NCBI GenBank assembly: GCA_033439295.1
Contig: JAVTLE010000003.1
Coordinates: forward strand, 1,178,001-1,242,000
Reading direction: 5' to 3'
From: Deuterostichococcus epilithicus
Taxonomy: Eukaryota; Chlorophyta; Trebouxiophyceae; Prasiolales; Stichococcaceae
DNA length: 64,000 bases
In this document: positions 11,604 to 61,829 of the stretch, piece after piece
How the letters are laid out: each line of letters begins with the position of its first letter
Position numbering within the stretch: the first letter of the stretch is position 1
The notes under the pieces: model-generated
Seen by the model: the letters and a program-made list of their open reading frames with translations, nothing else
The model's database searches: none
What the model was told of the DNA's origin: nothing
Translations under genes and position numbers: made by a program

Positions 11604-14373
11604 TCAGCGAACCACCCTCTTCACCGCCCGTTGCATGAAAGCGGTGGCGCGGTAGACCGCATAAATCACCCATTCGAGCGGTTTGGTGGGGCTATCGTCC
11701 GCGCGCCGCAGCACCACACCGTCTGAGTCTTTCATTTCCTCCCCGACCTGCAGCAGCGGCGCACCGCCCGCCTCCGTCTGCTGTATCCAGGCCGACAGGC
11801 AGCGGCCAACCAGCTCTGGCGCCTCCGCCTGCGGGCAGTGGCCGGCGGGTGACACCTGCGCGCGGCATTGCACCTTATCACAGCCAGGCGATGACGCCGG
11901 GTGCACTTTGTGAACGCCCGCCCAACCCTTGTGGCGGCAGCGCCAGCCGTCAGTGGCCACAGTGTTGGCCACAGACAGAAGTCAGAGATCTGGTGTGTCA
12001 GCGAGCCTGTGCACTACCGCAGAGGATCTGAGCATGTTGAGCTCGTGTCGCGAGCGAGATGTGGACATTCTTGCCTGGTAGTAGGCTGCCTCAGGCACGA
12101 CGCGCAGGATGCGCTGGCCCCATATGGAGCGTACCCAGGGGTCCTCCCGCCCATACACCAAAAGCATGGGCAGCCGAGCCCGCTGGATGGCGCGCAGCAT
12201 CTCGTCAAAGCTGCCGGCGGTGGCTTGCGGCGCGAACAGGATGCTGAGGAAGGCGTCGAAGGCGAGCGGGTTGTCTGCGAGCAGCACGGGCGTCAATGGC
12301 TCACTCGCTTCGCGATGGGCCTCGACCCCTTGCAGTGTGTGTGGCGTGTGTCGCACCCGAACAGCGTGTGACTGTGGCAGCAAGGGGAATCAAATGCAAG
12401 TGACACTCGGCACGAGGGGTGAGCTCTGCCCACACCTGCCGCCTCCAGAATGCGCAGCGCAAGCGCCTTGTCAGCCAGCTCCTCGCGAGCGTATACCTGC
12501 TTGTGCAGCAAGTTGCACTTTCATAGGTGCTGCTCCCGAGGCCCGATTTCTTACCATGGACTGATGCTCAGAAGTCCCGAGCGTCCCTGCTGAACAGCAG
12601 CTGCCGGCCCTTGCGAGTTTTTTCTCGCCTTTCAGCATGATCCGCGAAGTGCCAACATCAGGGATGGTGGTCCTCAACCAAGGGCGTCCCAGCCGCAGCC
12701 TGCTGCTGCAAAAGAGGTTGGATGCGACGACGAAGCAGGGTGCGAAGCCAGCAGCCTGCCTGCTGGAGGGTTTTCTGGATGGTCTCGGCGTTTCGGAGGT
12801 AGTCCCACAGTCCGCCTCCCACGCGCCGCACCCAGCCCGGCGCCGGCACGCTGCCGGTCCAGATCCAGCTGCCGCCACCGCCTCTGTCGCTGCTAGTGCT
12901 GACGGTGCCAGGACTCCTGGCTGTGCCGCTGTCCGAGCTGCTGCCTGCCTCTGTGGAAGCAGTGGGGGCAAAAGCATTGGATTGAAGGGGCAACAAAACG
13001 TCCACTCTTCGTGATGCCCGAGCTCCGGCTAGCATGCTGACACCAGACGATTGCATCGCTTCCAGTGCGCCTGTTTTGTCAGGAGGCATTCGTGTCGCAT
13101 GTATTAAGAAGCATGCCTGCGTCCTGCGGCCTGCCAGCTGACTCGTCAGGCGGGTTGCCGGCGGCTGCAACATCTCCCGCTGCAACGACCGCCGCCACTC
13201 CTGCCCCGGCGACTGGGCCGCTGGCTGCGGCGACCACTTCTGCAGTAATCTGGCCGCTGGGCTTGTTGAACGCCCACCAGGGTGTGGCATTGAAGAAGAC
13301 CGTCTGCAGGAGGCAGAAAGGCGATGTGAGCAGGGTCGAGCATGACACTCTTGACACAATGATATGCTGCGTCATCAGCCCAGGCACCGACGCATTGCTG
13401 CTAGCACCTACTGCATCGCTTGCAACTCGCTGGCATGGGAATTTGCAAGCTATAATGTGAGGCGCACCCCCCGGCAAAGTTCAGGATGATGGGTGGCTAC
13501 TGACGCCGCCACGAAGCCGCCCAGACTGTTGCCGGCAAGGAAGACTGGTTCCCCAATCTCGGATCTGCAACACATTAGCTTACTGTCGAGGTGCGCAGCG
13601 ACTAGGAGATCTAAGTGACTGATGTGCCTGCCCAACAAGCGCAACACTCGATCAAGTCAAAGGCAGATCAGCTCACCGTATGAACTCGCTGACTTGTTGG
13701 GTCCACAGATCCACTGAGTAGGTCAAACCCTCAGGCCGCTCTGGCCAGCTGCGGCCTTGCCCCAAAAAATCCAGGCTCCACAGGCGGTGGTCCTCGTGCA
13801 ACTCGTGCATCAAGTCGCCGAAGTGAAAGCATCCTGGATGCAAGCAAAACACAGAGGCCTGACTGCAGATTGCAGCCTCGCCTTCCAACGCAGCACATTG
13901 GAAGCTTCAGCATGAGCACAGTCGGTGCTGCAACAGCCCGGAGAAGCACCCAAAGCAGATCATGAGCGCGCACCGACACCGAATCCGTGTAGCAGCAGGA
14001 TGGGCGGCCCGCGAGATCCCCTCTGCCAGTAGTGCACGCGCGGCTGCGACGGATGCTGCCAGTCCAACCACCAGCGGCTGTGCGCATCGTCCTGGTGTCG
14101 CGGCCGGCTTGCCTGCACCTCGCTGACGGCACTTGAGGTATCAACCGCGCTGCCGCATGGGGCGCCAGAACGGCTGAGGCGGTGCGGCGCATGGCTGCGC
14201 GTGCGAAAGGCTTGCTGGGGGTTATGCCTGTCCACAGTAGACCACGCTCTGAGTGCCTGTGTGCCTGCATTGCCATTGAGGAGAGATCCGTCTGAGTGCC
14301 TGACAATATGATAGCATTCAACCTGCAGGTGTTCACAGTGCGATGCAGTCGGGGCAAGCCAGAATCTGTACAC
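11604..14373 (-). CDS. PPH: Pheophytinase (pheophytin pheophorbide hydrolase)
   Basis: Plastid alpha/beta hydrolase that removes phytol from pheophytin during chlorophyll breakdown. Eight exons: 14373-13974, 13833-13677, 13564-13468, 13303-13117, 12950-12760, 12496-12436, 12274-12075, 11855-11604; 514 residues. Landmarks in order: oxyanion LLLHGFGVG, HRLWSLDFLGQGRSWP, nucleophile elbow FLAGNSLGGF, NATPWWAF, catalytic acid region LLVYGREDPWVR, and catalytic His in VSPAGHCP. The His block and NATPWWAF match plant PPH rather than generic hydrolases. The cap between NATPWWAF and WDYLRNAETIQKTL holds a long Ala/Gly/Val- then Ser/Thr/Gly-rich insertion. Three of its introns begin with GC. The N-terminus from 14373 is a plausible but unproven presequence. 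Confidence 0.9.
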
Positions 14374-14806
14374 CTTGCTGTACGAGGTTCATCCTCGCGG
14401 TCTGCAGGAGCAGAAGCCACTGACTGCCCTTCTACAGAGTGTGCATCGCTGGTGGATTGTCCGACTGCAACTTGCTGATGCCCGGCGAGCCTAAGCGAGT
14501 GCACAGTTGGTCATACAGAGTGGCCAATAAGGTGTTCGGCGAGCGAGAGAATCTTGCAACTTGCGACTGCACCAGCACATCTCGTCACGGACAAGATCCA
14601 TTCCGCGATGTCGTCTAGTCTCCCTACTGAACACACAAATCACGCCTGTGTCGAATCTCGTCAACTCCATTACATCCTGCTGCCATCGACGCCTGCTTGG
14701 CACCAATCGCTGGCCGCTCGTCTTCAGATCATCTTGTCCAATCTAGAGTCGGCTGACACACCTCTTGTATGCAGCTTGATCCAGCCTGTGCTCCTTCTAA
14801 ACAACA
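14374..14806. promoter_or_regulatory. Divergent promoter region, PPH / Mis18-like
   Basis: 433 bp between opposite start codons. It is relatively AT-richer than its flanks. No specific element could be assigned. Confidence 0.45.
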
Positions 14807-15849
14807 ATGTCAAAATCATCTTCGCCGGCGGTCCTGCTGTGCAACAGCTGCAACACCATCATCAGCGATACGCATGAGCTGCGCGGCGAAGCGGCAGAGC
14901 TGGGGGCATTCATCGTGAACGGCAAGCGAGACCTTGTGTTACTTCCGTGTACTGGAATAGAAGAGCAAGAGCATTGAATATCGAAAGCAAACATGAGGCA
15001 TGTAGCCGAGTGCCAAGCGCTCGCCTGCAGGCGTGGAGAATGCGACCATCGATAATGTGCAGCAGCAGGTGCACCTCCCCTCCGGCAACACCAGGTACGA
15101 CATATTCAGAGCCTCAATTGCTGCAGGCCGTCGAACTTGATCCAGGAGCCGTCAATGATGAGTAGCAAATGGTCCTGGCGCATGTTCAAGCGCAGGACGT
15201 ACATCTCGATGCTGTGCGGCACCTGCGGCACGGCGGTAGGCAGGTGCTACGAGGCCATGGAGGAGGGCCTGCGGCACCTGCAATCGCGCTTCCTGCTGGA
15301 CGCGGCGTCGGTTCGCAGGTCGGCTGGTGTGTAGGTTGTGCTGCTCTGACCATCGTGTTTTGAAGTCGGCAGGTTTTGGTGCAAATTGCGCCGCGCAATG
15401 TCTGGGGCACTGGATGCTCTGATTAGAGACGTAGGCGATACTGACTGCTGAGTCGAGCAGTTGAGCAGGGAGCCTAGACATATCTGCCTGAACGCAGGTG
15501 GCAGTTGGGGAGTTGCAAGCAGCGGGCGCCGGCGGAAGATGATGCTGCCGGTGGAGGCACTATGTCGCTGGTGCAGCAACAGCAGCAGCGGATAGAGCAG
15601 CTAGAGGATGCGGTGCTGAAGGCAAGCTGTCATCAGCTCCACAGTTTTGTCGGCACTCTGCCCGATTTTTGTCACTTCAAGTGCAGGCCTATGAACTTTC
15701 AACTTCAGGTGTTCATATGCATCCTCAATGACGCCGCGCAGGTCCAGCATCTGATGTGCTTTCATAGCCAGCGGTTGGACAGCCTGGACGCGCGTTTGAC
15801 TGGTGACGAGGGGCTGCGAGGAGCGGCAGGCGATGCCAACCTGCAGTAG
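14807..15849 (+). CDS. Mis18/Yippee-fold zinc protein with C-terminal coiled coil (Mis18-like)
   Basis: Five exons (14807-14921, 15031-15094, 15127-15318, 15498-15621 and about 15742-15849) give about 200 residues. Two zinc knuckles, LLCNSCNTIISDTHELRG near residue 12 and SMLCGTCGTAVGRCY near residue 95, have the CxxC spacing of the Yippee/Mis18/cereblon fold. They are followed by RHLQSRFLLDAASV and then a Gln-rich helix, QQQQQRIEQLEDAVLK. A two-CxxC domain followed by a C-terminal coiled coil is the Mis18 layout, which in fungi and animals licenses CENP-A deposition at centromeres. Whether this protein does so is inference. Introns after 14921 and 15621 begin with GC. The last one is open in frame, so it could be retained. 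Confidence 0.7.
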
Positions 15850-16049
15850 GTTCCGACGGCAGGAGAGATTTGTGCGCCATCTGTCTTCACAGGAAGCGGC
15901 CGGCACGGGACAGGTGTGGCTTCGGCAGTGCCAGACCCAGTTACAGCGCTGAATCATCTTGCTGCAAACGACCCGGCAGATGTGTGTCACTCCATCTCAC
16001 AAAACGCTCTCTCTTTCACATCAAGTTACAGCACATTCGTGACTGCAGG

Positions 16050-17012: not shown

Positions 17013-17495
17013 GGCTGCCGCTACTGTGCTCCGTGAGGTTGCAATAGTTATTCAGATCGACCTCGGCCGCACTTCAAATACTCTTTCTGTGCAAGCAGCT
17101 GCGCGATCACTTGTCGAACTACCCACACGAAAGGTAACTATGATTGCCTTGGTGCAGAACTTCAGCAGTTGATCATCTGTCGGGCTGATGCGCGCGCCCA
17201 GCTCCAGCTGACCAGCTCCGAGCCTCCGACACCACGGGACTGCCAGCAGGCTCTGAGGCGGGTTTTCCAGCGCGCGATCTTGCAGGTCAGGTGGTTGCAG
17301 GTGCGCGCTGCGCCGCTCACATGCAAGCTTCCAAAGCCCCGGACGCACGTTCACAGAATCGTTCGAGTTTCTGCGCTCGCTCGTGCGGGTCTCGGACGTG
17401 CGGCGCCCACCCAGATCAAAATTCGAACCACAGCTCTGGGCATCATCGTTTTCCTGGGCCGATCAGCGCATGATTCCAGGCTGAATTTGACAGAC
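17013..17495. promoter_or_regulatory. Divergent promoter region, CFAP20 / plastid protein
   Basis: 483 bp between two opposite starts. A long plus-strand open frame crosses it but begins without a start context and is most likely chance in GC-rich DNA. Confidence 0.4.
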
Positions 17496-22619: not shown

Positions 22620-25600
22620 ATGACCACAGGACATCGGTTGCAGGCTGGTTGGTCGCGGTCTTTGCATCTGTCGCTTGAGCGCCCGCACAGCAGTCGCAGC
22701 AGTCAAGCAGGATGTCATACAACAGCTGACAGGCCGTCAGGGCGGGGTGCACTGCGCCCCTCTCGAAGGTGCATCACCGCCGCGCAGTTTGCACAAACCG
22801 AGTCACAGGCAGGACCAGCAGACTCGGGAGCCAGCACCTCACCACAGCTTGGCAGTGACAGCGACAGCGATGCTGGGAACAGTAGTAGCAGTAACGCTAG
22901 CGATGCGCAGCATGACATTGGCTTCAGCCAGGACTTTCACAAGCTCTACACGCTGGGTGACAAGATCGGGCGCGGCGCCGAGGGAGAGGTCTTCATTGGC
23001 CTCTCGCGTCGATCTGGTGACAAGTGAGCACTCCCGTGTGCTTGTACTCATGCAATAAAATCTGTAGCTGCATTTGCACGGCAGCACGCAGCAACAGAGA
23101 GCTTTATCAAGGCCTCGAGCGGTTGACCCCGCCATTCTGGCACCGCAAAGCAGCGGCTGCTCATGCAGCATTCCGCATGTGACCTGCAGGTTCGCCGTCA
23201 AGCGGACCAAAAAGGTGTTCCGCGATGACGGCGGCCTGTCGCCGGCGTTTTGCGAGCGGCTGCGCCACCAGATAGACATCTACCATGCCGTGGGTAACGG
23301 GCTCAGCATTGCACATCTTTATGGCGCCTTCGAAGATGCCGAGTTCGTCTACAGCGTGCAGGAGCTGTGCACAGGCAAGTGCCATGAGGATCCGAGCCAG
23401 AAATTGGGAGGGTCACAACTATGTGGGGCAGTGTGCTGTGAAGAGAATGCAGCAGTCTGCTGTCCAGGGCCAGCTGCACAATGACCCAAAACATGTGCGC
23501 AACCTTTGCAGGTGGCGAGCTGTGGCAGCACATCGGCGACCACTACAGCGAGGCCTACGCCGCCCGCATCATGCGCTACGTGCTGCAGACCATCGCCCAG
23601 GTCGGGATTAAGAATAATTTTGCCTTGCATCCACCCGACCCACCGTTTCCTCCACTGCCAGGTGAAGGCCATTCTCGCACTCCTGATGACAGTCAGCGAA
23701 ACGACAGCCAGCACAATGACTCAAAACTCTGCCAACAACCAGTCTCTGGCATAACGTGCACGCAGTTTCATGCGCACGGCGTGGTGTGGCGGGACGTGAA
23801 GCCAGAGAACTTTCTGTTCGCCAACGAGGACGACGACTCGCCCCTCAAGGCGGTCGACTTCGGCACCGCCGAGCGCTGCAAGCCCGGCGAGTTTATCACC
23901 GCCCGCGCAGGTGCCCGTGAGGGGGGACCTGGTTTTGTAGCTGTGAGACAGCAGTGTCCCCGGAGTGACTGTAGTGGTGTTGCAGGCAGAATTTGTCTGG
24001 TTGTGACTCGAGACGCTGTTGGGGCCTGTTGTGCGCCTTCTGCACAATGGCAATCAGAGCCAGGCATCAAAGAGCAACTGCTTTTGTCTTATGTACGCAG
24101 GCTCGCCGCTCTTCGTGGCGCCTGAGGTCCTGAAGCAGAAATACAACCACAGGTGCCTACCACGAACAGCTGCAGTCTTGTGTCGGTATTGAGCGTGCCA
24201 ACGACGCTGTCCAGTGTGGCAGAGGATGAGCACCTGCAGGCCCAAGAAGTGCCCAGCCCGGGCTGTATACTTGAACGCTGCTGCGGCATTCATAACTTAT
24301 CTCAAACCTACGTGTCAACTGCCAATTTGCTACTCCTTGCAGTGCGGACATGTGGGGTGCAGGCATGCTGGCATACATGATTCTTTGCGCCCGCCTGCCC
24401 TTCGGCACTGCGGACGCCAGCGTCACCGTCGCAGACCTGTACTCAGGTGCCAGCCCTATACGCCGCTTTTTCCGCCGCAAATTTCATGTCTGCGGGCATC
24501 GACACTGTCGCATTCGGACACACTAAAGTGGTGCTGCACAGCAGCCATGCGCGTTTGCCTGCATGATGGCATCTGTTGTCAGAGTCCTCTGCAGCAGCCG
24601 CTGTCGTCGTGCATGCAGGCCGGGTGAACGTGTCGCGGCGGCAGGCATTCGAGGCGTTGCTCACCTTCGAGATGGACTTCCATGGGCCTCACTTCACGGA
24701 GCTGTCTGACGGCGCGCAGGAGTTCATCAAATCGCTGCTGCAGGCGAGCCGCACACTTTATCTGTGGCAAAACACACAGATGTTTAGATGTTCTCAGACG
24801 TTATCTGCGGCCAGCAGGCAGTACCACTTGGCGCCTCATCCGAACGGATTCGCATTCTCGTTGGCAGCGGTGTTGACCGGGATCGCAAGTGCACGACAAC
24901 ATGGTTGCCTGCAGGAGGATCCTGAGAAGCGGCCCACAGCAGAGGAGGCGCTGCAGCACCACTGGGTGCAGGTGCGAACACTGGTATTACTGCCCTGTAG
25001 ACGCGAAAGCACGGATCACTGACGCCGAAGGCATCAACGACTATGTCAACCCATTCTGTGTTCTCTGCTCCAGACCTTGCGCCCTGCACCATTCTTGGCA
25101 CGTATGTTGTCGCCACCACAACCAGCCTAAGTCCGATGCGATCTGGCACGAGCTCTCGTGCCGGCTGCAGGCTGATGCGCCGGACGTGCCGTTCTCCAGC
25201 TCCCTCGTGCAGCGTCTGCAGCGATTCGGCAGTTACAACCGCTTCAAGCAGGTGGGCGCTGAGCCTTCCTGCATTTCCAGCGTCACTTTCCCCCAGGGGA
25301 CGCACGCGGGAGTGCCGAGGTTGGCAACGGGGATTGCCCTCTCACCGCTGCTAGATGCCAAGCCCCATGCTGAAATGCCACCCAGCTCACCTTGGGTGCG
25401 CCGCCAAGCAGGCTGGCGCCTCAGGGCATGCCAGTGGGTTGGCTCTCGTAAGGGCTGTGCCTGCGCTGAACTTAAACCAGCTTGGATGAGGAAAGATCGC
25501 TCCTGCAGGTGGTGCTGCAGGCGCTCGTGGCGGAGGTCCAGGCCACCGACGAGTTCCTCATCCCGCCGCAGCTCCATGCAGGCGAGTCAGCGCCGCGTCA

Positions 25601-27200
25601 ATGCGCAGCGAAGTCTCCTGCCGTCCCACGCTGCAGTCCCAGCAGCCGCTGCGCTGCACGACGCCTGCTGGCTGCGCTGCTGGCAGCAGCGCAACCCTGC
25701 ACGGGCAGTGCCGCCGAGTTGCTGACCGCAGGGTGCTTGTCTGGTCGCTCAGTCTCGCGCTTGCTTCCTGCTGCGCCTCGCCATCTGCAGACACTGCCGC
25801 GAGACGCCTCTCGATGCTCCTGCCCCGTCAACGACCAAGCCGTGTGCCATCGCTGCGCGCCCCGCGCTCAAAACCCTCAGTTCGATGCCGCAGAGTTTGC
25901 GGCGCTGGACCCGGAGGGAAAAGGCGTCGTGCCGCTGGCGGTTATGCGGGAGCGGCTGCAGGGGGAACCCTTCTTGCTGTCTGCACAGGAGGTGCGCGCG
26001 GCCGCATAGCTTTCCTTCAATCTCCCATGTCGCAAAGGGCCCTTGCCCTGCAGTGAATGGGGCAGGGTTCACTGCTGCATTGCTTGGGACCGGCAGCTGC
26101 CGCAGCCGAGCTGCCTTGCAGGGGCGCCATGTCGTATTAGAGGCGCTGAAACTTGTCGCCCGAAATGATGGGAATGTAGAAGCAGCCAGCTGGACGAGGG
26201 CTGGCCGAACTGGTCGAGGAACCATGCGCCATGCGTGTGTGCTCGTGAAGGTGGAGCGGCTCCTGCGGCAAATCGACAAGGACGCGGACGACCATGGCAT
26301 CGCCTATGACGAGTGGATGGCCGCCATGCTGACCTGGCGAACGGTGACATCCTAGGGATGCGAACCCCTCCTGCCTGAAGCCGCAGTGGGGCTGAGCCTG
26401 GCAGCAGCATCATGCAAACGACCCATCAAAGTGACTCGTCATCACCAGCAGTGCGGGCCGGCATGTGCTGGCCGTGCATGTGCCGGCCACACGGCTCCGG
26501 GTCGACTACCCTAGCGATTGGTTGACCATGCATGCGCGTGAGTCGACCTGCAACCCGAGTTCCGTGCTGCCCTGCGCAGATCGAAAAGTGCCGGGAGTGG
26601 GACGACTGGATCGACAAGGCCTTCGCAGCGATGGACTCTGACGGCAACGGGCGCCTGAGCCGCAACGAGCTGGAGCGCTTCCTGTGCCGCGACAACATCT
26701 GCCTGTCGGAGCAGGCGCTGCACGCGGCGTTGGACGAGGCGCACCGCGCCTGCGGCGATGACATGACGCTGGAGGTGCTGACATCGCGCTGCTCTGTTGA
26801 TGCCCGCGCCCTTCATGGATGATGGTGTGTGGACATGGAATGCAGACAGAGTTCCAAGGGGTGGCTGCCCCCAGTTCCTGTGAGTGGCGAGGCATTGCCT
26901 GCCGCCGCCGGGCAGGCGCTGCGGGCGGCGGCGCAGGAGCAGCGCTGTGCTCGCGCGGCTGCCTGCGTGCGCTTGGATGACTCTGTGCGCTGGCGGCAGA
27001 CGCACAGTCGCCTTGTGAGCGTGTCGCGGCCTGTGCCGCAGGACTTCAGGGAACTCATCACTGCGCGGCCGCACGGCCATCATGACGACGATGCCGACCT
27101 GGAGATCTTCCACGCCCGCGTCAGCGACCCCGGGCGCGACAAGTCCCTGGACTCGCGCGACGGCGGCTCGCCGCGCGGCTCCCGAGACGGTGGCGCCTGA
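22620..27200 (+). CDS. Calcium-dependent protein kinase (CDPK) with EF hands
   Basis: Ser/Thr kinase directly activated by Ca. Fourteen in-phase exons: 22620-23023, 23190-23374, 23512-23600, 23766-23910, 24101-24152, 24343-24446, 24619-24743, 24915-24971, 25171-25251, 25509-25581, 25894-25991, 26251-26343, 26580-26774, 27042-27200; 619 residues. N-terminal Ser-rich extension of about 110 residues, then glycine loop [16 protein letters not shown] lysine in FAVKRTKK, catalytic loop [11 protein letters not shown] (Trp replaces the usual His), DFGTA, APEVL and [13 protein letters not shown]. After the kinase come a junction helix ([13 protein letters not shown]), EF-like loops [10 protein letters not shown] and [14 protein letters not shown], and one canonical EF hand, [12 protein letters not shown]. 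The tail is acidic and Ser/Gly-rich. Three introns start with GC. There is no N-terminal Gly for myristoylation. Confidence 0.92.
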
Positions 27201-47822: not shown

Positions 47823-50800
47823 ATGGAAACAGTTGGTGCGATCACGCCTGCGGGCGGTGACGCAACAAGTGGTACGTGCTTGGAAAGAAATGAACGTAGT
47901 AGCACGACGTGATCACCCGACCACTCAAAGCGACTGACATGTGTTGGTTTTCAGGAACACCATCCGCAAAGGTTGCGGGCGCGGAGCAACAGCGCACGCC
48001 TCTGCAGCTGCTGCAGACGCCCAACGTGGGCGGACCGCTGCCGCCGCTTCGCACGCCCAAAACGGTCAGGGCCGCCTGCCTTGCCCTCTAAGCATATCAG
48101 CGTCGTGAAATTTGCCAACTGACGCCAGATCTGTCTGGTCTGCCGCAGCGCTGGTGCACACCGGGCAGCGCCATAAATGCCACAGACAAGGTGACGATGT
48201 GATCGGCTGTGCCAGCGAAAGCTTGCGCTTGGAACCTTATTGAGGCGCGTCAAAGTCATACAGCTTCACTTGCTGCTCCGCAGGACCAGAGCCGGTCGCT
48301 GTCGCTCAGCCCGGTGCCGCTGTGGGTGGCGGGCGCCGGACCCGCACAGGAGAATGTCAAGGCGAGTCCAGCCGCCGGTAGCTTGCCACTGAGTCCAGGC
48401 TTTGTAAAGCCGAGGCCACGCCATGGCCCGACAGCACCGCTTGGCTGAAACGTGCATGTTGCCAACTGCAGGTGTGCTGCCGCGTGCGGCCGCCACAGGA
48501 CAGCAGCGCAGGCAAGTGTTCGGCGACTGTCCGTTAGCTGCCGTCCTTTGAGCTGCCATTCCCCCATGCCTGGAGTTCCATGCTGTTCATGACACAATAC
48601 ACGTGCTCACGCTTTGTGCCGCTGCAGACGCTGCCGGGGCGGCTTGCATAGAGCTGGATGGAGGAGACAAGCGGCGGGTGTGGCTGCTGCCCAGCGCTGC
48701 CGCCACGCCGCTCACGGCGACGCCGCTCAAGGCTGGCAAGGCAGCCGATCCCAAGGGGCAGCCGGCGGCACACACCCTGGACCACGTCTTTGCCCCAACA
48801 TGCTCCCAGGAGACGGTTTTCAAGGGTGCGCAGCTTTGGAGTCTCTGCTCTCGAAGCTGCAGCAGCAGTCCGCAGTGAGGGTCCAGTATGCAATGTCAAA
48901 TGAGCGATGCGCCGCAACCAATAGCGATGATGACTGCTCGCAGTCGTGGGGCGGCCAATCATCACGAATGTGATGGCTGGCTTCAATTCCTGTGTGCTGG
49001 CGTATGGAGCAACTTCATCAGGTGAGACGCTGTGCTGCTTCATGGCAGCACGAGGCCACACATCTGCAGCACTGACTTTGCGGCGCCTGACATGACCAGA
49101 GCCTACCTGCTGCTGCAGGCAAGACGCACACCATGCTCGGCGATGTGTCAGCAGGCCAGGACGGGCTGTCTGCAGAGGTGCGTGCGATATGTCCACCATG
49201 CCCGCGCTCGAGTCGCCAATTTGCACACTGTGTGGGCGGGCGGTCCTGGCGGGCGTGTGCACACACCCCAGGGCTGTGGCGAGGCGCTTTGAATTGGCAT
49301 TGTGTGCTGCTCTCTGCAGGCTGGACTGGCGCCACGCATCTTCCACCGCCTCTTCGACGAGATGAAGACGCAGCAGGCAGCCACTTGCAACCTCTTCTGC
49401 CGGCTCCTCATCAGACAGATCACCTAAACTGACCTGCAGCGGCGCTTGGCAGTGCTTCACCTGCGCGTTTGTCGCCTCGGCTGTTGGCGCAGGTCCCACA
49501 CCTCGGCACCTCTTCTTGCCACCGCCACCGTCAGTTGAAGCCCTGCTACTTCTGGGCTGCAGGCCAGCGGAAGGCTCATCTCCGGCGTTGTGCGCTGCTC
49601 CTTCCTGGAACTGTACAATGAGACACTCAGGTGCTGCTGCACCGGCCCATCCGGCTGGCTCCACGTCCAAATTAAATGCTGGCGTTGCAGCAAAGATCAC
49701 AGAGTCATTTTTCGGACCCTGTAAGGGATCGTCAGGAGATAACGTGTGTGTGCTGGCCCACCCTGCAGCGACCTGCTGGAGCCGAGGCGCAGCCTGGCCA
49801 TCCACGAGACGGCAAAGGGTGTGCACGTGGAGAATCGCAGCAGCATTGTGGTGGCAAGCGGTGAGCGCACCCTTCCATTGGGCTATCACGATTGCAGTCC
49901 TGGTCTTGCTCGGGATGCAGTTATCGCCCACCAGGCTGCTGCGCAAGCATCGAAGGTGCCTCCGCGGCAGCAAGCGCAGGCTATGCCCGCGGCAGCTGCA
50001 GCCGGCACTTTGGGCAGCCAGAATAGTGTGCCGCCCTTGTCTGGGCAACTTGACCGATGGTGGTGATGATCCTGATGTTTCGTTGTCGTTTCCTGCGCAG
50101 CTGTGGAGGCGGTGGAGTTGCTGCAGCGAGGCCTGCGTGCGCGACAGACGCAAGCAACCAAAGCGAATGCGGCGTCCAGCCGCTCACACTGCATCTTCGC
50201 TGCAGACCTGGAGCTGCACGCCATGCGGGGCGGCACGCCACAGGTCCTGTCTGCCGCGCTCACCCTCGTCGACCTGGCAGGTGCGACCGCACCCGGAACC
50301 ATCGTGCAGTGGCAGCAGTGCCAGCCTGTGGCTTTTGCCAGACTGAGAGAGCGCTTCACAAGGCGCTGGCGCGGTAAGGCGCCAGCCTGGCCTCGCCTTA
50401 CCGACAGGCGGGCGCGATCAGAGTGCACAGCCAGTCCAGGCTGGCAGACCTGCGTGCTCATCGCATGACCTCATCGAGAACATGCGAGGGGGGCTGCATC
50501 CTGCTGTCCGTGCCAGCGGATGCAGCCGACCCACTGTATATTGACCTCGGCTCGTTCAGGCTGCTTGGTTGCCGTGCCGCCGCAGGCAGCGAGCGGCAGA
50601 AGGAGGCGGAGACGTCGGGCCACCGGCTGGAGGAGGCCAAGAAGATTAACGGCTCGCTGATGTCGCTGGGGCGCGTCATCAAGGCGCTGACCGAGGCGGG
50701 GGGCGCCGGCGGCGGCCGTCCGCACGTGCCGTATCGCGACTCCAAGCTAACGCACCTGCTCAAGGCGAGGCACTGGCGCCGGCAGCGAGCGTGATGCCAC

Positions 50801-53800
50801 CTGCCACAGTGACGCAACTCGAGGCCGAACGACTCGGCGCTTGCATCGGCGCGGCATGCCCGGCGGGCTTCCTGAGGGGGGGCCCCGGTGTGGTGCAAGG
50901 GTTTAGGCCGCCGCAGCGCACGATCTGTGGTGTATCCTCGCCGGTCGCCACAGTCCGCCCCACAGATCTCTCCATCGCGACTTCCGCAACTGTCTGCAGT
51001 TGATGCCAAGCCGCTTGCTTTTTTCAGGACTCCCTTGGCGGCAACTGCAAGGCTGTGTTCATCGCGAACGTCAGCGCGGCGGAGGCGCATGCGGCGCACA
51101 CCGCGCACACGCTCGCGTTTGCGCGGCGCGCCAAGAACATCGTCAACACGGTGCGGCGGCTGCTGTGGCGGCATTGTCGTTTTGATGTGCTGCACGGCCC
51201 ACACATCCATAGTCGATGTTCTGCTTCGACGAGCGCCGACTGCTGCCCGGCTGGCCTCTGTGACCTGCTCAGCTGCAAGGCTGGCTACGAGGATGCCACT
51301 GTCCGTCTCACTTGCACCACCAGCGCCGCCCGAATGCAGGTTGCTGTTCGGCTGCAGGTGCGCGTAAACGAGGACAAGTCGGGAGAGAGCTCGTCGTTGC
51401 GAGATCAGATCCAGACGCTGCGCCTGCAGCTGCACCGCCAGGCGCTCTTCATCCAGGTGCGCTACTCGACGTCCACCACAGCTGCGACACAGGGAGGAAC
51501 CAACATCTAATTGACGCAGCAATCGGCCTGAACATGGCCTGGTTGCCACTGAAACGAGCCGCTGTGCATGAGCTGCGGCTGAGATGAGTGGGTGGCGGAC
51601 CAGGGTGTCCTGCTTGGAACGCCGGCATGCAGCAGAGGCTATCGGCATGCAAGTCTCAGAACCCCCGGCCGCCTGAACCGCCCGTTCCGCCCTCCGCAGG
51701 AGCTGTCCGCGCAGCGGGCGGAGGGCGAGGAGCGGCAGGAGGCAGGGCGGCAGGCGCAGCTCGCAGAGGCGACGGCTGCCAACGATGCCCTGCAGCGCCG
51801 GCTGGCGGCGCTCGAGGAGGAGCACGGCAAGCTGCAGAGGTGCGGCGGACGCCCTCGGACACAGCGTGTGCAGGAGGCTGCCTAGTCGTCTCGAGCCGAA
51901 ATCCGGAGTCTGTGATGCAGTGACTGTTAACGAATGCTCTGCTGATTGCCCTGCGCCTTCCGCCAGGCGGCCTGCTCATTGGGCTGCGACGTCCGGAAAG
52001 CCACATGCAGAGCGGTTTGTGAAACGGTTCCAGTCCGGTCGCGACCCCGCTGGCGCAGGGACCACCAGGAGCTGCGGCAGCGGGAGGCGGCGCTGGACCA
52101 CGACCGCGAAACGCTCGTCGAAGCGCACCTGGACGCCCGCGACGTGCACTCTGCTCCCTGTCTTTGCAATTTTGCCAAGACCCGGCTCAAAGCCTTGCAG
52201 TGTTCCCAAGACGTGGCGTGCCTTGCACGTGAAGCGGAGCAAGAACTGATGCGAAGCTGCTTGCACCACACCGCTCAACCTTGGTGCCTCGGATGAGACG
52301 CAGAGACGTCATCAATGCCTTGCACACGACAGTCAGCCGGTGCCTCAGCCGCTGTTCGCTGCATGCCGTGCAGCGCGCCGAGAGGGCAGAGGCGCGGGAG
52401 GCGGGCCTCGCGGCCGAGCTGGCGGCGGGCCGGGCGCAGCTGGCGACGGCGCAGGCGCGGCTTGACCAGCAGGCGGCAGACCTCGCGCAGCAGCTGCAGG
52501 TCAAGGAGTCGGCGCTGGCGGCCGTCACTGAGCAGGTGGGCAGCTTGATGTGGTCAGGTACAGTCGCACTTTCGTGTCGCTCTCCACAGTCATGCAGACA
52601 CAGGGCTGCAGCAGCAGCTGAGAGCATACAACCAGGTCGGATCGATGCAGCAACTTCAAGCAGGCAAAGCAGCTTCGATCTGGCGCTGCACACCAGATGA
52701 ACCCTTAGTCTGTGTTGACGAGAAGGCGTACTCCATGCTGTCGACCTCAGCCGGGTGCGCTCGAGTGATGAAGTCTTGCTTCGGGCAGGTGGCGCGGCTG
52801 GAGCAGCAGACGCAGCAGCTGTCCGGGCAGGACGAGGCGGCGGCGGCGGTGCAGGAGCTGCTGCGCGCGCAGCTGGCCGACAAAGACAGCCAGCTGACGT
52901 CGAGCAGTGAGCAGCTGGCGGCAGCGACAGCGGCGCATGCGCTCAAGAGCGAGGAGTGCGCCAGGCAAGCTGGCAGGCATGCATCAGCCTGCCATCCTCG
53001 CACCGCATGTGGCCAGTACTGCCTGATCATGTGCTGCCCTCAACCCTTTGTTCTGTCAGCTGGCCACTGCACGGCATCGCACTGCTGCAGGACATGGCGA
53101 TGTGGCTGTGGTCTCTCAGGGACCGCAAGGCGGGATCGACCAGGGCCTGGCGGTGATCAAACCAACCTTTATGTTCTGGACCCGCAGCTTGGCCGCGCGG
53201 CTGGCGGGCCTCAGGGCGGCAATCGTGGAACGCGAGGCGTGTGCGCACGCGCTGCAGCTGGAGGCCGCCGCCCTGCGGGAGGAGGCCGCGGTGTCGGGGA
53301 AGCAGTCGCAGCTGACCGCCACCAGGTGAGCCGCGCAGTGCGGCCTGCACTCGAGCGTCTCCGAACGCCTCTCCGTGCTCCGCCGCACTGCCGCCGGCAG
53401 AGCAGGTTGTGGTGGCGGCCTGCACCTGCACCTGCCCATGGAGGCTGCTCGACCAGAAGGCTGTTCCAGGGCCGTCTGCGACCCTGGTCCACGACGGCGG
53501 CCTGGTACTCCCGCGCAGGCTGGCAGCCCTGGAGCGGCAGCAGGAGGTTGCCGAGGGGCGGGACCAGCAGCTGACGGGCGAGGTGCAGCGCCTGCGGCAG
53601 ACGCTCGACGAGGCACGCGCTGCCCTGGCGGCCGCGCTGCAGGGCGACGAGCAGGGCGCAGGCTCGCCGGCGCAGGTCGCCTTCTTGCCATCGGCCAACC
53701 TGATTGATTTGCCTATTGAGTTTGCTGGAAACTGGCTGGGTACAGCAGGCGAGTTGTGCGAACGAAGATTGCAAGTTTAAACTGTCGGTAGTATACTGCT

Positions 53801-56800
53801 GTATCTAGGGGGGTTTGTGAGGCTACAGTTGCTGGCCATGCGCGGACCTGAGGCCTTATCGACCTGTCCTCCTTTGTACAGGACGCCGCCGATTCGCTGG
53901 TTGGCCAGGTTGCGCGACTGCAGGCTGCGCACGCAGCAGCGCTCGACCAGCTGCGCCTGCAGACGGCCTCCGGCGCCCAGCTGCTGGCGACGCAGGCACG
54001 CTGTGCAGCTGCTGTGAACCGCCTGCCGCCACCACTGCTGTCCGTTCTGTGCTGCCTGTCGCTGCCGCCAGCCAGCGTGACCAAGTATTCCACTTCTACA
54101 ATCCGCACCTCCAGGCCCAATTGCAGATGGAATTGCATCTGATCCAGCACTGTCTGCGCAACTGTAGGAGCAGTCGGCGCTTGGCCTGGCGGCGGACAAG
54201 GAGCAGCTGCTGGCCAGTGTCTCAGAGCTGCAGGTGGCCCTGGCCCAGGTGCCCAACCGACAGCCGTGGCTGGCGTGGCTCTTGCCTTCTGAACTGCCCC
54301 TTGGCTTCGCAAGGCTCTGAGGGGGTCCTTGCTGCCACCAGAGTGCACCCGGGCTGGACAGCTTCATCGTGCGAAGCGTTCAACGCTGCGACGACAGACC
54401 TGACTCTCGCCCACTGACTGTCGCCTCCTCGTCTTTCCCCTGTGCAGCTGCGGGCTCACGCAGAGGAGGTGGGCGAACGGCTGGAGGCCGCGAACGGGGA
54501 GAAGGCGCAGCTGGCGGCGGCGCTGGCAGCGGCGGACGAGGCGCGACGCCGCAGCCGCGACACTATCAAGCCCCTCGTGCAGGGCCTCACCTCTCAGCGG
54601 TCAGTACACTCTGCAGGCGGACAGACCTGACCTTGCTGTTGACTTGCCACGATGCTGCCGCCAGAACGGTAGCGATAGAACGCATGTTGGTAGCATGCCA
54701 TGCTTGCGCTGCGTCCTGAGATGAACTGCTCGAGTGTCGTCCAAACAGCACAGGCGATGCAGCCTCGTGCTGGTGGCATCGACTTCTGGGTGCAGATGGC
54801 TGATGACGTATCGAGAGCAACACCTCGCGACCTCCTGCCGTTGCAGGGACCAGCTTCTGGCGGAAAACAAGGCGCTGCACACGGAGCTGGCGGAGCAGGG
54901 CGAGAAGGTCGCCGTCTTCGAGGCGGAGATCATTCGCCAGGTGGGGCCTTAGGGTTCAGGGTTTAGGATACCGCAAAGCGGGACTTGGCGCCGTGGCATG
55001 GCGCCGCCCGGCGTGCCTGCCTGCGCCGGACGCAAGCCTGCTCGCCAGGCGCAGGCAAAAGGGCGGTTTCGGGAGACTAGCTTCAGTTTCTCTGCTCGCT
55101 GGTGACGCATGTACGTGTGTTGATGCGATGCGCCAGGACGGCGTGCTGGAGGAGCGGCGGCGCAGCGGCGAGGAGTGGGAGGCGCGACACGCGGCGGCGC
55201 GGGCGGCGGCGGCGGCGGCGGAGGCACGCATCGCCGACCTGCAGGAGGCGGCCGCCTGCCAGGCCGAGGTATCGGCGGCCGAGGTGCACACCTGTGGTCG
55301 GGCGGTTTGCTGTCTGCCCAACTGTCGACACTCCCCCTCCTCTCCAACCTGGGAACACGACGCGAAGGGCTGCAAGCAGAACCGCGAGTCAGCGCAGCGC
55401 TGCATTGTGAGAGCGGTTTGCCTGTCACGCAGGCGGCTGCCCTGAGGGCACAAGCGGATGAGCAGCGAAACGACCGCGAAGTGCTGTTGATGGGCGTGCG
55501 GGCGGACCTGGACTTTTGGCAGCGGCGCGCCCTGGATGCAGAGGATGCAGCAGCCGCCGCCCGAGAGGCCGCCGCTGCGGCGGTGGCGGCAGAAGACGCC
55601 GCGACAGCCAAGGTGCGCTGCTACCCTGTGCTACATCGTGTGGCCGCCGACCAGACGAGGACGCGCCCTGGCAAACACTCGGAATGTTGCTGACATGCTG
55701 TGAAGTCACAGCTGTCACATCCTGTTCTGGATCATCACAGGTGGAGGCGCTGCGGCAGGAATGCCAGGCGGCGCGAGAGGCAGCGGCCGCCTCTGCAGAC
55801 GACGATCTGGAGGCAGAGGTTGCCAGGCTGCAGGCGGTGGCGGCGGACGCCGCGAGCGCCGCCGCAGCACGAGACGCCCAGATCGACGAGCTCAGCGGGC
55901 GGCTGCGCGAGGGCGGCAGCCAGATCGCCACGCTCGAGACCGGAATCGAGGCGGCGGGCGCTGCTGCGGCCGCTGCGGCGGCGACCGTCGCAGGCTGGCA
56001 GGCGCGGTGCGAAGGCCAGGCGGCGGAGCTTGCGCGCCAGGCAGCAGACCTCGAAGCTGCGCATGCAGGCGCGCAGGCTGCAGCCGTCGCGCTGACTGCC
56101 GGCGAGACGCAACTCACGAGCCTCCGTGGGCGCATGGCGGCCGCAGAGGCGTCGGCCGGCGAGGCGCGGCAGACGGCAGACCAGCTGTCGGAGGCAAAAA
56201 CGCAGCTGGCTTGCCAGCTGGAAGCTGCGCAGGCGGGCGCGGCCCGCCACGAGGAGCAGGCGGCGGCGCTGCAGTTGCGGCTGGACGCCGCGGAATCGGG
56301 CGCCGAGCGACATGCTGCAACGGCGGCGGCGCTGCAGACACAGCTGACCGCCGCACAGGCAGACGCTGAGCAGCAGGCAGCGGCAGCGACGGCGCTGCAG
56401 CTGCAGCTGATCACACTGCAGTCCCAGCTGGCGGCCGCAGAAGCACGCGCTGAGACACTGCAGTCTCAGCTAGCGGCGGTGACGGAGACTGCGCGGCAGC
56501 AGGATGTCGGGACAGCGGAGCTCCTGGCGCAGCTGGCGGCGGCCACGCAAGCGGCGCAGCAACAGGATGCAGCGACAGCGGAGCTGCGGTCTCAGCTGGC
56601 GGTGGCGATGGAAGCGGAGCAGCAATGGGAGGCCACGACAGCGGAGCTGCGGGCACAGCTGGCGGCGGCAAGGGGCAACGAGTTCACGCACGCCGCAGAG
56701 ATGGCGGCGCTGGCCACTCAGCTGGCGGTGGCTGCACGGGACCTGGATGCCGCCACATCAGCAGGGCAGGCACTGCAACAGCGAGTCGAGGTAAAACACC

Positions 56801-59800
56801 GATGGCGCCAGTTGCCTGTGGCGGACAGTCAAGTGAGGTTTTCGACCATCCTGCAGCTGCCCTGACAGCGCCCTGACTGTCTTGTCCCCTGGCTGTGCCT
56901 CCGAGAAACCAGCGGCTATGTTCTGCATCTGCCATTCAGCTGCAACGGGTGCCCCTCGGCCATGACAGGGCCTGGAGGCAGAGGCGGCTGCCGCCACTGC
57001 CGCCGCGACAGCCAACGACGCCGTCGCCGAGCAGCTGCGCGGGGAGGTGCAGCAGGTGCGCCAGGCGTGCGAGGCTGAGGCGGCGGGGGCAGAGGCGCGC
57101 AAGCAGCGGCACGCAACCGAGCTGGACAGCCTGCAGGTGTGACGGCCTCGAAGTCAAGGGAGGAGTGTCTGGCACATGTCGAGCACTGACGCTGCCAGTC
57201 TGGCGAGCCACACTTCGGGCGCTGGCTCCTGCTGGCGTCGTGTGCGCACCTTTGACCTGTCGCAGGCGCAGACAGCGGCCAGCTGCAGCGGCCCCGACCG
57301 AGCGTGGCGCCAGGACGCAGCTGCAAGAAAGGCTGCCAATGCATGCGAGGTGAGGGTGACATCTCAGGCGTCGACCGACTGCTGCAGGAGCAGCTGGCGG
57401 CGCAGACCGCGGCGGCGGAGGCGCTGCACGACAGACGGCGTCTGGAGGCAGCCGCGGCGGCAACAGCCGCAAAGCGCGCAGACGCCGAGCTGCGGGACGC
57501 CAACGTGCGGGCACAGAACGCGGAGTCAGCGGCGGCCGNNGCCGCCGACGCGGCGCGAGCCGACGCTGCGCTGCTGCGGTCGCAGGTGCGCGGCCTGCGG
57601 GGCGACCTCGCGGCTGCAGAAGCGGCCGCGGGCGAGGCGCGGCAGCGGCTGGAAGCGGCAGAAGCAGCAGCGGCGGCCGAGCTGGCCGAGGCGCTCGACG
57701 TGCATGCCGAGCAGGTGGCGGCGCTGCATCGACGGCTGGCGGACGTCGAGTCACGGGCGGCGGCTGCCGTGACAGAGGCTAAGGCGGCTGCAGCACGGGA
57801 GGCAGAGGTCGCCGCGAGTGCCTCGGCACATGCTGACGCCGCCGCGGCGCAAGCGGCCGCCGCAGCCACGGCCGAGGCGACGGCGCAGCACGGCAGGGAG
57901 AGGGCCGAGCTGGAGGCGTGGGCGGCGGCGGCAGAGGCGGCGCAGACGGCCGCCGAGGCCGAGGCTGTGCAGGCGGCCGCAGCCCTCGCCGACGCGAGGC
58001 AGCAGCTGGCGGAGGCGTCGCCCGAGGCCGCCGAGGCGCTTGCCGGCCAGCTGGCGAAGGCCCGGGCGGAGCTCGACGCCCAGCGCGCGGGCGGTGATGC
58101 CGCAGAGTCCGCCGCGCTCGAGGCGCGCAGCCGGGTCGCGACACTGCACGCGCAGCTGGCGGCACGGGACGCGGCGGTGGCCGGCCTGCGGGACGAGCTG
58201 GGCGCTGCGGCGCGCCGCGAGGTGGCTCTGGAGGAGCGGTCGGCGGCGGCGCTGGAGGCGCGGGAGGCGGCGGCGGCGAGTCGCGAGGCCGAGGCTGCCG
58301 CCCGCGCGGCGGCGGAGCGCTCGGCGCAGCTGGTGATGCCCTGAACCCTAGATTCTTTCGCTGCCACTTCTGAGTGCACGTGTCCAGGTGATGCAATCCT
58401 GAGGTCGATAGTTTCTGGTTCGTCAGCGCGGAGGAGTCTGCAAGAGCCCAGCGCCATGGCAGCACATCGGTCTGCGCCGGCGCCGCCTGTCACAAGCTTT
58501 CCGACCGGTGCTGAGCCCGTCAGCCGGCCGAGCTGACAGGCAGGCTCCCGACTCCCGGGGCATCGCAGGCGCATGCGGCGGCCGAGGACGCGCAGCAGCG
58601 GCTGGCGGCGGCGCAGGCAGCGGCGCAGGAAGTGCAGAGGCGCTCCGAGGCCGAGCGGCGTGCTGCTGAGCGCGCCGCCAGCGACGAGCGCCGCGAGATG
58701 CTGCGGGCCGCGGAGCAGCTGCACTCGCAGCTGCAGGTGTGGCCCCAAATGCGCAGCGCCACGCCTGCGCGCGTGCCAGAAGCCGTCCCCCCTGCTGCAC
58801 TCGTCAGCTGCCTGGCACGGCGCGCGCGGCTGTGATCCCCAGACGGGACTAGGGTGCTTTGCAGTGGGTTGTAGCCTGGTGCGCATGCGCTGCGCTGCCG
58901 AGCAAGCCTCCTGACCATGGCCGGCGGTGCGCCGGCGTGTTGCGCACGCATTGCCGCATCCTCCTGCTGCCCAAAGGCTCATCCTGGCTGCGGCGGCAGG
59001 CGGCCGACGTCGAGCGCCTCAACGTGTCCGCGGCGCTGGAGGACGCGCAGGCGCAGCTGCAGCGCGGCGAGCGGGAGCGGGCGTCGCTGCAGGAGGCGCT
59101 GCAGTCGACGGCGGGGCTGCTGCGGCAGCAGGAAGCGGCGGCGGACGCGCTGCAGGCATGTGCCGTCGCCTGTGCCTGCTCGAGCCTCCCTCTGGTGCAG
59201 CAACGGGATGATGGCTTGCCCGCGAACAGGAACGGAAGGCAGCCGAGCGGCGCGTGCTGGTGCGGAAAAGCGGGCCACAGCTGTGAGCTCCTCCACGACT
59301 TCACTCTTCACATGAAAGTTACGCGAGGCCAGGCGCAGACGACGGAGCGATCGCCTCCAGACTCCCGCATGTTCACGCGGCAGGCGCGGGCCGCCGATCT
59401 GGAGCGGCAGCTGGACGAGGTGTGCTGCGCGCGGCGCGACGCGGCGGAGGAGGCGGCGGCAGCGCGGCGGCGGGCCGCCGACGCCGCGGCCCGCTCCAAG
59501 GCCGTGCTCGCGGAGCGCAGCCAGCAGCTCGGGCAGCTGCAGGTGCGCTTCTCATGTGTATACCGCTTACGGCACCCACTCGAGAAGCTCTGATGAGGGA
59601 TGTTCCCTCTGCTGTGCTGCTGTTGGATGCACAATCCATCTATCCTCTTCTCGATGTGCATAAGCGCGACCTCGGAGCTCTGCTCCACAGGATGTCGGCG
59701 AAGTGGCCAAAGACCAAATGCTCCGCGAGATCCAAGCCTAACCACTCCCTTTGGTCCGCCTGTGTGCAGGCAGAGCTGCAGCGGGCGCAGGCGGAATGCG

Positions 59801-61829
59801 GCGCCGCATCCGACGCCGCGGCCGGGCTGCGGGCGGACGTCGCTTTGGCAAAGCAGTCGGCTGTGGAGGCGGCGGCGGCGCTCGCCAGCGAGCAGCATGA
59901 GGCAGCGCAGGCAGCCGATGCAGAGGCGCAGGCGCTGCGGCACCTGCAGGCACGGACTCGAAGCCTCCCTTTTGTATTCTGCCAATGTCGCGCAGGGGCT
60001 GTTCGGGATCGCTAGGGTGGTGTGTCTGTGGAGGCGAGGCCTCCTGCAGTTTCACAAGTGCTGTGACACTTTCGGCTCGTCAGCCTGGGTGCCCAAGCCC
60101 TAGCCACACAGATGTTGCTCTGTCTCGAGCCAGACACCCCACAACTCCGGGTCGGAACCCGGTCACTGAGCTCATGAAGATCCTCGAATCATCAGCTTGA
60201 CAAAAGGGGTTGCAGCAGTTCGTGAGCTTGGCGGCAGAGGGTTCCAAGGCTTTCAAACGGGGCGAGCACCTATGAGGTCGCAAGGCTCGGATCTGGAATG
60301 CGCATCCCAAGACCTTTAAGCGCATGTTCAACATGATGCGAGATTTCCAGGTGGAGCGCCCCCGCAGCAGGTGCGCCTCCTGACGGTGCCCTTTCAGCTG
60401 CCGATGCCTGACAGCTGTAGCGGACGCACCTGTCGTCCAGTACAGGAGCAGCACGCCGGAGCGGGGCGGCAACTGCCGCAGCGGCCGGCTGCAGAAGAGT
60501 GCTGCTCCCTGACGGCGGTTGCGTCTCTTGACCGTCGTAGGAGCATCACGAAGATGCCGAGCGGGAGCTGTCGAAGCAGCTGGCGGCGCGGCGGCGGGAG
60601 GCTGAAAGCCTGTCGGAGCGCCTGGAGGAGGCCGAGACGGCGCGCGCGCTGCCGGCGGCGGTGGCGGCGGCGCGGGCGGAGCTGGCCGATGTGCACGTGG
60701 CGCTGGCGGCGGCGCAGCGCCAGCACGCGCACATTCTGCGGTAGGCAGTCGCACCTGCCTAGCCTCCACCAGTGTCAGACGGGACGAGCAAACCGCTCAA
60801 CGTGCAGCTGCGCTGCTGATGATTTCAGCTGGGAACGACGGTGTGCCAGGAGCCTGGCCGGCGAGCCACTGGCTGACCAAAACACTCCTTCGGAAGAAGC
60901 GTACCATGCAATGCTGATGCCGCCGTCCCCTTGCGCAGGGCTATGCAAGGGCCGCTGCGCAGCGGCCTCGCAGGCGACGAGGCGGCGACGCCGCCCGGCG
61001 CCGTCGCCGCCGAGGTGCGCGGCAGCGCCAGCCAGCAGGAGCTGCACAGCCACCTGCGGGCGCTGCAGGCCGAGCGGGAGGGGGATCGCGCAGAGGCCGC
61101 CGCCCGACTCAGGTGCGATCACAGACTCTGGTGCAGCTTTGCAGGGCTGCCCCAGGGTGGTCATCGGTCCACCACGCCCGGCCGCCTCCAGCGTTCAGAG
61201 CGCGGCGCACGTCAAGCTTTGAGACTGTGCCTCGGGCAGGCAACCTCCGTGGCACCTGTTCACACCTCGCCCTCACACGGTGCTCCGGGTCCGGACCATT
61301 GCCGCCGCGTACGCAGGACTCAACCAGGACCCTACATGACCACAACCCATTTCGGTCTCGTTTCGGTGGCGCCAAGGGGGGCGCAGAATTTGAAGCTGCA
61401 CCCACTATGGGAAAACCCTATGCTGAAATATCGCAATGTGCTCTAAGGAGCTGGACGTCAAAACGCGGCGTGGCGAGTCCCTGCCCCTCGATTCGCAGGC
61501 GTCTGTGTTCCCAAGATGTGCACCTGAGGCATGGCTCTGTGTTTTGTGAGTCAACTCTGCTGCCGCGATGACGGAGCGCAGGGAGCTGGAGGTGGAGCTG
61601 GACGAGATGGAGGCATGACCAATACCCTGAAACTAACGAAGGTTCTTATCACCATGTGCGCAGGGAGCTGGAGGCGGAGTTGGAGGAAAAGGATGCAGAA
61701 TGCGGCGTGCAGCTGGACATCATTGCAGGCATGCGGGAGGAGTATCGCGCGCTGTCCTCCCGTTCCGCCCAGCGGCCTGGGCCATTTGGTGACCGGGTGT
61801 CCCGGCGGCCGGGGGGTCGACAAGGATGA
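47823..61829 (+). CDS. Large N-terminal-motor kinesin with very long Ala-rich coiled coil (kinesin-12-like)
   Basis: Microtubule motor, 37 in-phase exons, about 2,167 residues. Exons: 47823-47871, 47955-48064, 48284-48361, 48472-48511, 48628-48825, 48944-49021, 49119-49177, 49320-49376, 49563-49630, 49769-49860, 50101-50280, 50586-50764, 51028-51150, 51358-51456, 51700-51839, 52059-52143, 52374-52535, 52789-52964, 53188-53325, 53519-53675, 53882-54013, 54168-54248, 54448-54599, 54847-54940, 55137-55283, 55433-55612, 55741-56790, 56969-57136, 57266-57349, 57388-58332, 58569-58736, 59000-59155, 59384-59542, 59770-59949, 60541-60740, 60939-61112, 61664-61829. Motor: [13 protein letters not shown]-loop [13 protein letters not shown], switch [10 protein letters not shown], switch [52 protein letters not shown]. 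The tail of about 1,600 residues is almost wholly coiled coil, Ala/Gln/Glu-rich. Motor-first layout and tail length favour kinesin-12; the subfamily is uncertain. Seven introns begin with GC. Confidence 0.88.
56340..56690 (+). repeat. Internal coding repeats in the kinesin coiled coil
   Basis: Inside exon 55741-56790 a unit of roughly 20-23 residues recurs, read as [47 protein letters not shown] and similar. At the DNA level the gcggagctgc / cagctggcggcg blocks recur about every 60-70 bases. This suggests growth by tandem duplication of heptad modules. Confidence 0.6.
61576..61612 (+). pseudogene. Duplicate of the start of the last kinesin exon (skipped exon-like block)
   Basis: Bases 61576-61612 read acceptor gcgcag then a [11 protein letters not shown] block. 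This closely copies 61658 onward, gcgcag then [11 protein letters not shown], the true last exon. The upstream exon (ending 61112, phase 2) can splice to either acceptor, but the copy ends at a GC donor in phase 0, which would throw the last exon out of frame. It is best read as an unused duplicated exon within the 551-bp intron. Confidence 0.5.

Follow-up and report, generated by a model that had tools for sequence, protein, structure and literature searches.

GC makes up less than 1% of intron donors in one account (PMC2490688), and introns that begin with it average 1.2% in plants (PMC6310983). Their donors are compensated by a closer match to the consensus elsewhere, and the neutral fixation of GC in a strong context is the origin favoured by Churbanov et al. 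(PMC2490688). A larger share is reported for several algae by Iwata and Gotoh (2011, PMC3033335), namely 7.7% in Chlorella sp., 22.2% in Micromonas pusilla and 39.6% in Aureococcus. In that work a high share is tied to high genomic G+C, the correlation being otherwise weak, and the 5' end of the U1 RNA has its usual form in Aureococcus and two Micromonas, Chlorella not being among the genomes checked; the origin of the abundant algal GC-AG introns is called an enigma. The present analysis concerns GC-AG introns in a 64,000-nucleotide stretch of the nuclear genome of the green alga Deuterostichococcus epilithicus (G000:C3:1178001-1242000), hereafter the window, and in samples from elsewhere in the same assembly, which comprises 46.8 Mb in 21 contigs.

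It is confirmed that the predicted introns of this alga have a raised share of GC donors. In the sampled parts of this GC-rich algal nuclear genome, these are very probably, to judge from sequence, ordinary U2-type GC-AG introns whose share is several times the usual one. As in the U2-type GC-AG introns already described, the donor is GC and the rest of it lies nearer to the U1 consensus (PMC2490688); the acceptor is AG, the only one that the gene model admits. Unlike in plants, the share is about 5 times (outside the window) to about 15 times (within it) the plant average (PMC6310983). There is a likeness to Chlorella, Micromonas and Aureococcus, which are also GC-rich algae with a raised GC-AG share and, where checked, the usual U1 5' end. 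Two differences can be noted: G+C is about 62% in the present sample against 66–70% in those algae, and the share reported here comes from a gene model and homology rather than from transcripts (PMC3033335). The simplest account is that the known GC-AG class occurs at a raised level, this genome being a further case beside those three, and the result bears on the enigma of Iwata and Gotoh (PMC3033335).

GC donors in gene models and at conserved junctions

Training and analysis were carried out on 304 kb, consisting of the window together with 200 kb from contig C12 and 40 kb from contig C18. The outside sample is therefore 240 kb, from two other contigs in bulk, and together with the window it covers about 0.65% of the genome; G+C is about 62% in both the window and the C12 stretch. 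A two-strand hidden Markov model (HMM) of genes was used, with codon-periodic order-4 exons, order-4 introns, donor and acceptor weight matrices, and acceptors restricted to AG. It was trained by Viterbi re-estimation and bootstrapped on GT donors alone, other donors being admitted only afterwards. With GT alone, 611 introns were placed, with the clear signals CAG/GTGCGY and YGCAG/G (the slash marks the junction). The gene models are the HMM's own, some neighbouring genes being fused, and the margin of a call is the score lost on forbidding its one donor.

When expectation-maximization (EM) was freed of any dinucleotide preference and started from the GT-derived context, it returned 491 GT, 58 GC, 31 CT and 19 CA donors, and at most 10 of each other dinucleotide. 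One extra dinucleotide admitted at equal prior gained 162.8 nats for GC, 79.3 for CA and 48.2 for CT, the other 12 gaining at most 11.8. The CT and CA calls resemble CTG- and CAG-rich sequence and were taken as the noise floor. With all 16 dinucleotides open and the 15 non-GT ones equal, GC received 54 calls against 113 over the 14 decoys; at a margin above 4 the counts were 20 and 11, and above 6 they were 5 and 0. From a margin of 2 nats upwards GC stands above each of the 14 decoys, and it is the sole non-GT dinucleotide well over the decoys once a score margin is required.

Corrected for the 14 decoys, the GC share is 17.8% in the window (bootstrap 10.8–25.8), 6.1% outside (3.6–8.8) and 8.6% overall (6.2–11.3); at a margin above 2 it is 19.3, 5.5 and 8.5%, respectively. 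Counting GT and GC only, the uncorrected share runs over the margin and exon filters from 13.9 to 21.7% in the window and from 6.5 to 9.5% outside. The net share of 5.5–6.1% outside lies well above 1–2% (bootstrap 3.3–8.8% over both margins), and raised GC use is thus not confined to the window. An earlier note on this window, made from sequence alone, had put GC-AG introns at about ten times the usual frequency. They are indeed several times above the plant average of 1.2%, but the figure itself fits neither region, the net 18–19% of the window being nearly double and the net 5.5–6% outside about half of it. Its count of 19 GC introns in roughly 150 is fair or even low: the HMM places 29 GC and 106 GT introns in the window before any margin is applied, and 20 and 79 at a margin above 4.

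Evidence of a different kind comes from homologous proteins. Nine GC junctions in conserved, well-aligned stretches were selected, seven of them listed in the earlier note (34569, 34320, 33907, 46138, 50765, 23375 and 24744) and two lying elsewhere. For each, donors and AG acceptors up to 75 bases away were combined in every way that kept the frame and contained no stops (113–459 combinations per junction), and the resulting protein was scored against a homologue of solved structure. The GC splice scored highest in all nine, in one case sharing first place with an AG donor at a shift of three. In eight tests the best GT splice fell short by 5, 19, 19, 20, 20, 34, 56 and 69 points, and in the ninth no GT splice existed. 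As a control, the GT splice came first at 10 of 11 GT junctions of the same window genes. A Pfam check was made at 14 conserved-looking junctions among the 37 outside-window GC junctions with a margin above 2: ten lie inside a single domain match (in one case under its cut-off), two of these without net gap (Lipase_3 and Chorismate_bind), and four do not. Fragments 29 and 30 of this outside set contain stops, perhaps because the stretch ends inside the gene, which is then read in the wrong frame.

Donor context and the reading of position +2

GTAAG is the textbook form of a donor. It is rare among the GT donors of this alga, since the consensus over the 304 kb is CAG/GTGCGY with G at +3 in 86%; AA at +3 and +4 occurs in only 10 of the 503. 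Because the GT donors, unlike the usual ones, read GTGCGY, A at +3 and +4 is here a sharp mark of the GC class. At a margin above 4, GC and GT donors differ in A at -2 (95 vs 72%), A at +3 (50 vs 6%), A at +4 (48 vs 24%) and G at +5 (93 vs 78%). Part of this pattern is learned by the model, and the comparison was therefore repeated with the context fixed from GT introns, in which +3A is found in 15/55 GC and 28/411 GT donors (p = 2e-5). Over seven flanking positions, the mean number of matches to U1 is 4.67 for GC and 3.72 for GT donors (p = 4e-10), a surplus of about the one pair lost at +2. Donors with a preceding AG and G at +5 are GC in 17.4% of cases, the remaining ones in 5.0%. The two classes do not differ in intron length (205.5 for GC vs 197 for GT, p = 0.86) or intron phase (p = 0.20). 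The acceptor reads YGCAG/G in both, its AG being imposed by the HMM. First introns make up 9/61 of the GC and 40/503 of the GT class.

The probable mechanism is that a normal U1 pairs with the GC donor and that closer matches at the last exon bases (AG) and over +3 to +5, chiefly A at +3 where GT donors have G, make up for the pair lost at +2. The GC introns are presumably spliced as drawn. Such donors may be strong GT donors in which T at +2 changed to C while composition was GC-rich and selection weak; the direction and the recency of these changes are ones that we infer. In such algae, many genes with several introns would be broken up by gene finders confined to GT, and the dependence of GC on the rest of the donor offers a natural test of how far a pair at +2 is traded against other pairs.

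An unlikely alternative is that recognition of +2 has been relaxed throughout the alga by a protein that reads the donor, and not by U1, so that T and C would be nearly equivalent in strong donors. The basis for this reading is found among donors with A at both +3 and +4, where GC outnumbers GT by 16 to 10; in the non-circular set the counts are 6 and 7. U1C was not found, the only zf-U1 match sitting in a protein of another appearance (by eye presumably of WBP4 type), from which nothing follows; LUC7 is present in the genome. An altered U6 was rejected, both U6 matches carrying ACAGAGA.

Alternative readings: local enrichment, prediction artefacts, U1 variants and introners

The window appears two- to threefold richer in GC donors than the outside sample, and it could be a local or gene-specific hotspot produced by recent donor turnover in a few genes. 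This is rather improbable. At a margin above 2, GC donors number 24/122 in the window and 37/442 outside (Fisher p = 0.0008), but when both flanking exons have at least 60 bases the counts become 13/86 and 29/357 (p = 0.06); over all filters, p lies at 0.0001–0.001 if short exons are kept and at 0.02–0.10 if they are not. The contrast is moreover biased, since the window was picked for looking rich. The earlier note had also described clustering by gene and had seen in it a hint of recent donor turnover. In permutations this clustering is not significant within either region (p = 0.11 in the window, 0.78 outside), and the hint is left unsupported along with it; pooling gives p = 0.04, a value that mixes in the difference between the regions. 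Finally, each 25-kb bin of the C12 stretch holds GC introns, 2 to 6 apiece. The small loci, most of them on other contigs, yielded 3 GC and 26 GT introns, too few to use.

Several results weigh against ordinary, compensated GC-AG introns in a GC-rich genome. No compensation is seen in U1 duplex energy (p = 0.19 both ways), the G+C of GC and GT introns is equal (0.595 and 0.590), and in mammals the conversion of donors was not strongly affected by base composition in the work of Churbanov et al. (PMC2490688). The remaining results concern the calls themselves. Without a margin, decoys equal or exceed GC, with 56 CA against 56 GC calls pairwise and 90 CT against 76 GC calls with class matrices. 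A model-light boundary test, which scores the loss of coding signal past a donor-like motif, gives no support to GC donors outside the strongest context, GC doing no better than GA or GG in AG/GNGCG (GT 36/50, GC 9/34, GA 3/11, GG 3/12) and in AG/GN[AG]NG (GT 99/124, GC 31/90, GA 12/33, GG 12/28); GC looks better in AG/GN[AG]AG alone, on 16 cases, where the counts (GT 12/12, GC 10/16, GA 2/3, GG 1/2) are too few to weigh. An exon of at most 3 bases precedes the donor in 5/61 GC calls at a margin above 2 and in 1/503 GT calls, an excess from which some GC calls must be artefacts. One false GC call is 36534 (margin 0.8), where the model skips about 15 residues present in the E. coli EttA chain 3j5s_D; the raw call at 23052, preceded by a 2-base exon, is doubtful. 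Lastly, an aminotransferase junction on C12, one of the nine tested by homology, has a GT rival just 5 points worse.

The decoy calls, the false call at 36534 and the tiny exons are the case for a prediction artefact, according to which the true donors would be nearby GT sites, the GC sites merely fitting the frame in GC-rich sequence. As a general explanation it is very improbable, given the nine homology tests, the standing of GC above every decoy from a margin of 2 nats upwards, and a GC context that departs from that of GT in a way sensible for U1 even without circular learning.

Also very improbable is a variant U1 RNA pairing with C at +2, as a driver of GC use. A U1 variant has been suggested for the GA donors of Eurytemora and Oikopleura (PMC7072748), a case resembling the present one in that an unusual donor is nevertheless common; the dinucleotide is another one, and no fitting variant is found among the U1 matches here. 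The U1 search, in which 41 of 864 candidates were scored, gave ten matches, eight of them over the family cut-off. The 5' end reads ATACTTACCTG in eight of the ten, and two differ: ATGCTTACCTG in L008 (L008:1501-1511, on C13) and ATACGTACCTG in L010 (L010:1501-1511, on C10). All ten retain the usual A facing +2. The inspection of U1 5' ends suggested in the earlier note thus revealed a base complementary to C at +2 in none of the ten matches, although a divergent U1 could be missed with just 41 of the 864 candidates scored. The changes in the two variants face +6 (L008, A to G) and +4 (L010, U to G), and each is the exact complement of C, the commonest GT-donor base at these positions. L010 lies below the family cut-off and may be a pseudogene. 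C-rich runs are seen just past the 3' ends of the U1 copies L002, L003, L008, L009 and L010.

Least probable of all are introner-like elements with a GC donor that have spread recently, as in M. pusilla, which combines 3,566 introners (PMC9860276) with a high GC-AG share (PMC3033335): in an all-against-all search within the 304 kb, none of the 630 introns resembled another at E<1e-4 or had a second copy, so that no introners are present in this sample, and GC and GT introns do not differ in length.

Sites in the window and neighbouring genes

All 19 donor coordinates given in the earlier note read GC on the strand it names, and the HMM places a GC intron at 18 of them, the exception being 14922. 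The GC donors suit the reading frame and, at the seven listed sites tested, the homologous proteins as well; the remaining 12 have the HMM behind them, except 14922, for which that note is the sole source. Calls at these sites were made with GT and GC permitted and with class weight matrices from EM, the training data including the window. Table 1 gives these sites together with three further introns.

Table 1. GC donors and GC-AG introns of the window (positions are those of the window; HMM, placed by the gene model; points are alignment scores of the enumerated splices).
Feature	Positions	Strand	Donor	Evidence
PPH of the earlier note	11829..12074	-	CAG/GCAAGA	HMM, margin 9.4; no Pfam match for this gene part
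PPH of the earlier note	12497..12759	-	CAG/GCAGGC	HMM, margin 4.6
PPH of the earlier note	12951..13116	-	CAG/GCATGC	HMM, margin 7.7
Mis18-like gene, listed candidate donor	14922..14923	+	AACG/GCAAGC	Not used by HMM; donor score 1.3
CDPK-like kinase	23375..23511	+	CAG/GCAAGT	HMM; ranks first of 408 splices vs chain 9vhu_A, 20 points above the best GT
CDPK-like kinase	24744..24914	+	CAG/GCGAGC	HMM; shares first rank of 459 splices with an AG donor at a shift of 3; 19 points above the best GT
CDPK-like kinase	25582..25893	+	CAG/GCGAGT	HMM alone, margin 4.1
EttA-like ABCF gene	33702..33907	-	CAG/GCGCGG	HMM; ranks first of 338 splices, 19 points above the best GT
EttA-like ABCF gene	34054..34320	-	AAG/GCAAGC	HMM; ranks first of 257 splices, 34 points above the best GT
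EttA-like ABCF gene	34375..34569	-	CAG/GCAAGC	HMM; ranks first of 301 splices, 56 points above the best GT
VPS37-like gene	40234..40432	-	CAG/GCGAGC	HMM, margin 11.3; Mod_r domain downstream of junction
Nucleoside diphosphate kinase	46138..46296	+	AAG/GCGTGC	HMM; ranks first of 168 splices, 20 points above the best GT
Kinesin	48362..48471	+	AAG/GCGAGT	HMM, margin 6.5
Kinesin	48512..48627	+	CAG/GCAAGT	HMM, margin 5.9
Kinesin	49377..49562	+	CAG/GCAGCC	HMM, margin 8.4; weak donor, score 1.9
Kinesin motor domain	50765..51027	+	AAG/GCGAGG	HMM; ranks first of 136 splices, 69 points above the best GT
Kinesin	52965..53187	+	CAG/GCAAGC	HMM, margin 3.2
Kinesin	59156..59229	+	CAG/GCATGT	HMM, margin 7.7
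Kinesin, doubtful	59950..60367	+	CAG/GCACGG	HMM, margin 6.8; next exon 3 bases
Nuclear cap-binding protein subunit 2 gene, further intron absent from the earlier note	6680..6947	+	AAG/GCGCGC	HMM, margin 3.5; junction upstream of aligned part
Mis18-like gene, further intron absent from the earlier note	15622..15708	+	AAG/GCAAGC	HMM only, margin 5.5
Kinesin gene, further intron absent from the earlier note	53996..54167	+	CAG/GCACGC	HMM only, margin 9.8

The gene name PPH found no confirmation, that part of the gene having 0 Pfam matches. In the Mis18-like gene, the exons downstream of 14922 match Yippee-Mis18; at its start the listed donor is weak, and the HMM failed to assemble the first half of the domain. 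A scan with ARAGORN and an Rfam scan at gathering cut-offs gave no match within the window.

The EttA-like gene occupies 33413-38311 on the minus strand. It is a nuclear, intron-rich gene whose product is close to bacterial EttA, its best match being chain 3j5s_D with 573 bits, and it was fused by the HMM with the neighbouring VPS37-like gene. As in a photosynthetic eukaryote, the genome also contains a nuclear, intron-bearing PsaD gene, which matches photosystem I chains.

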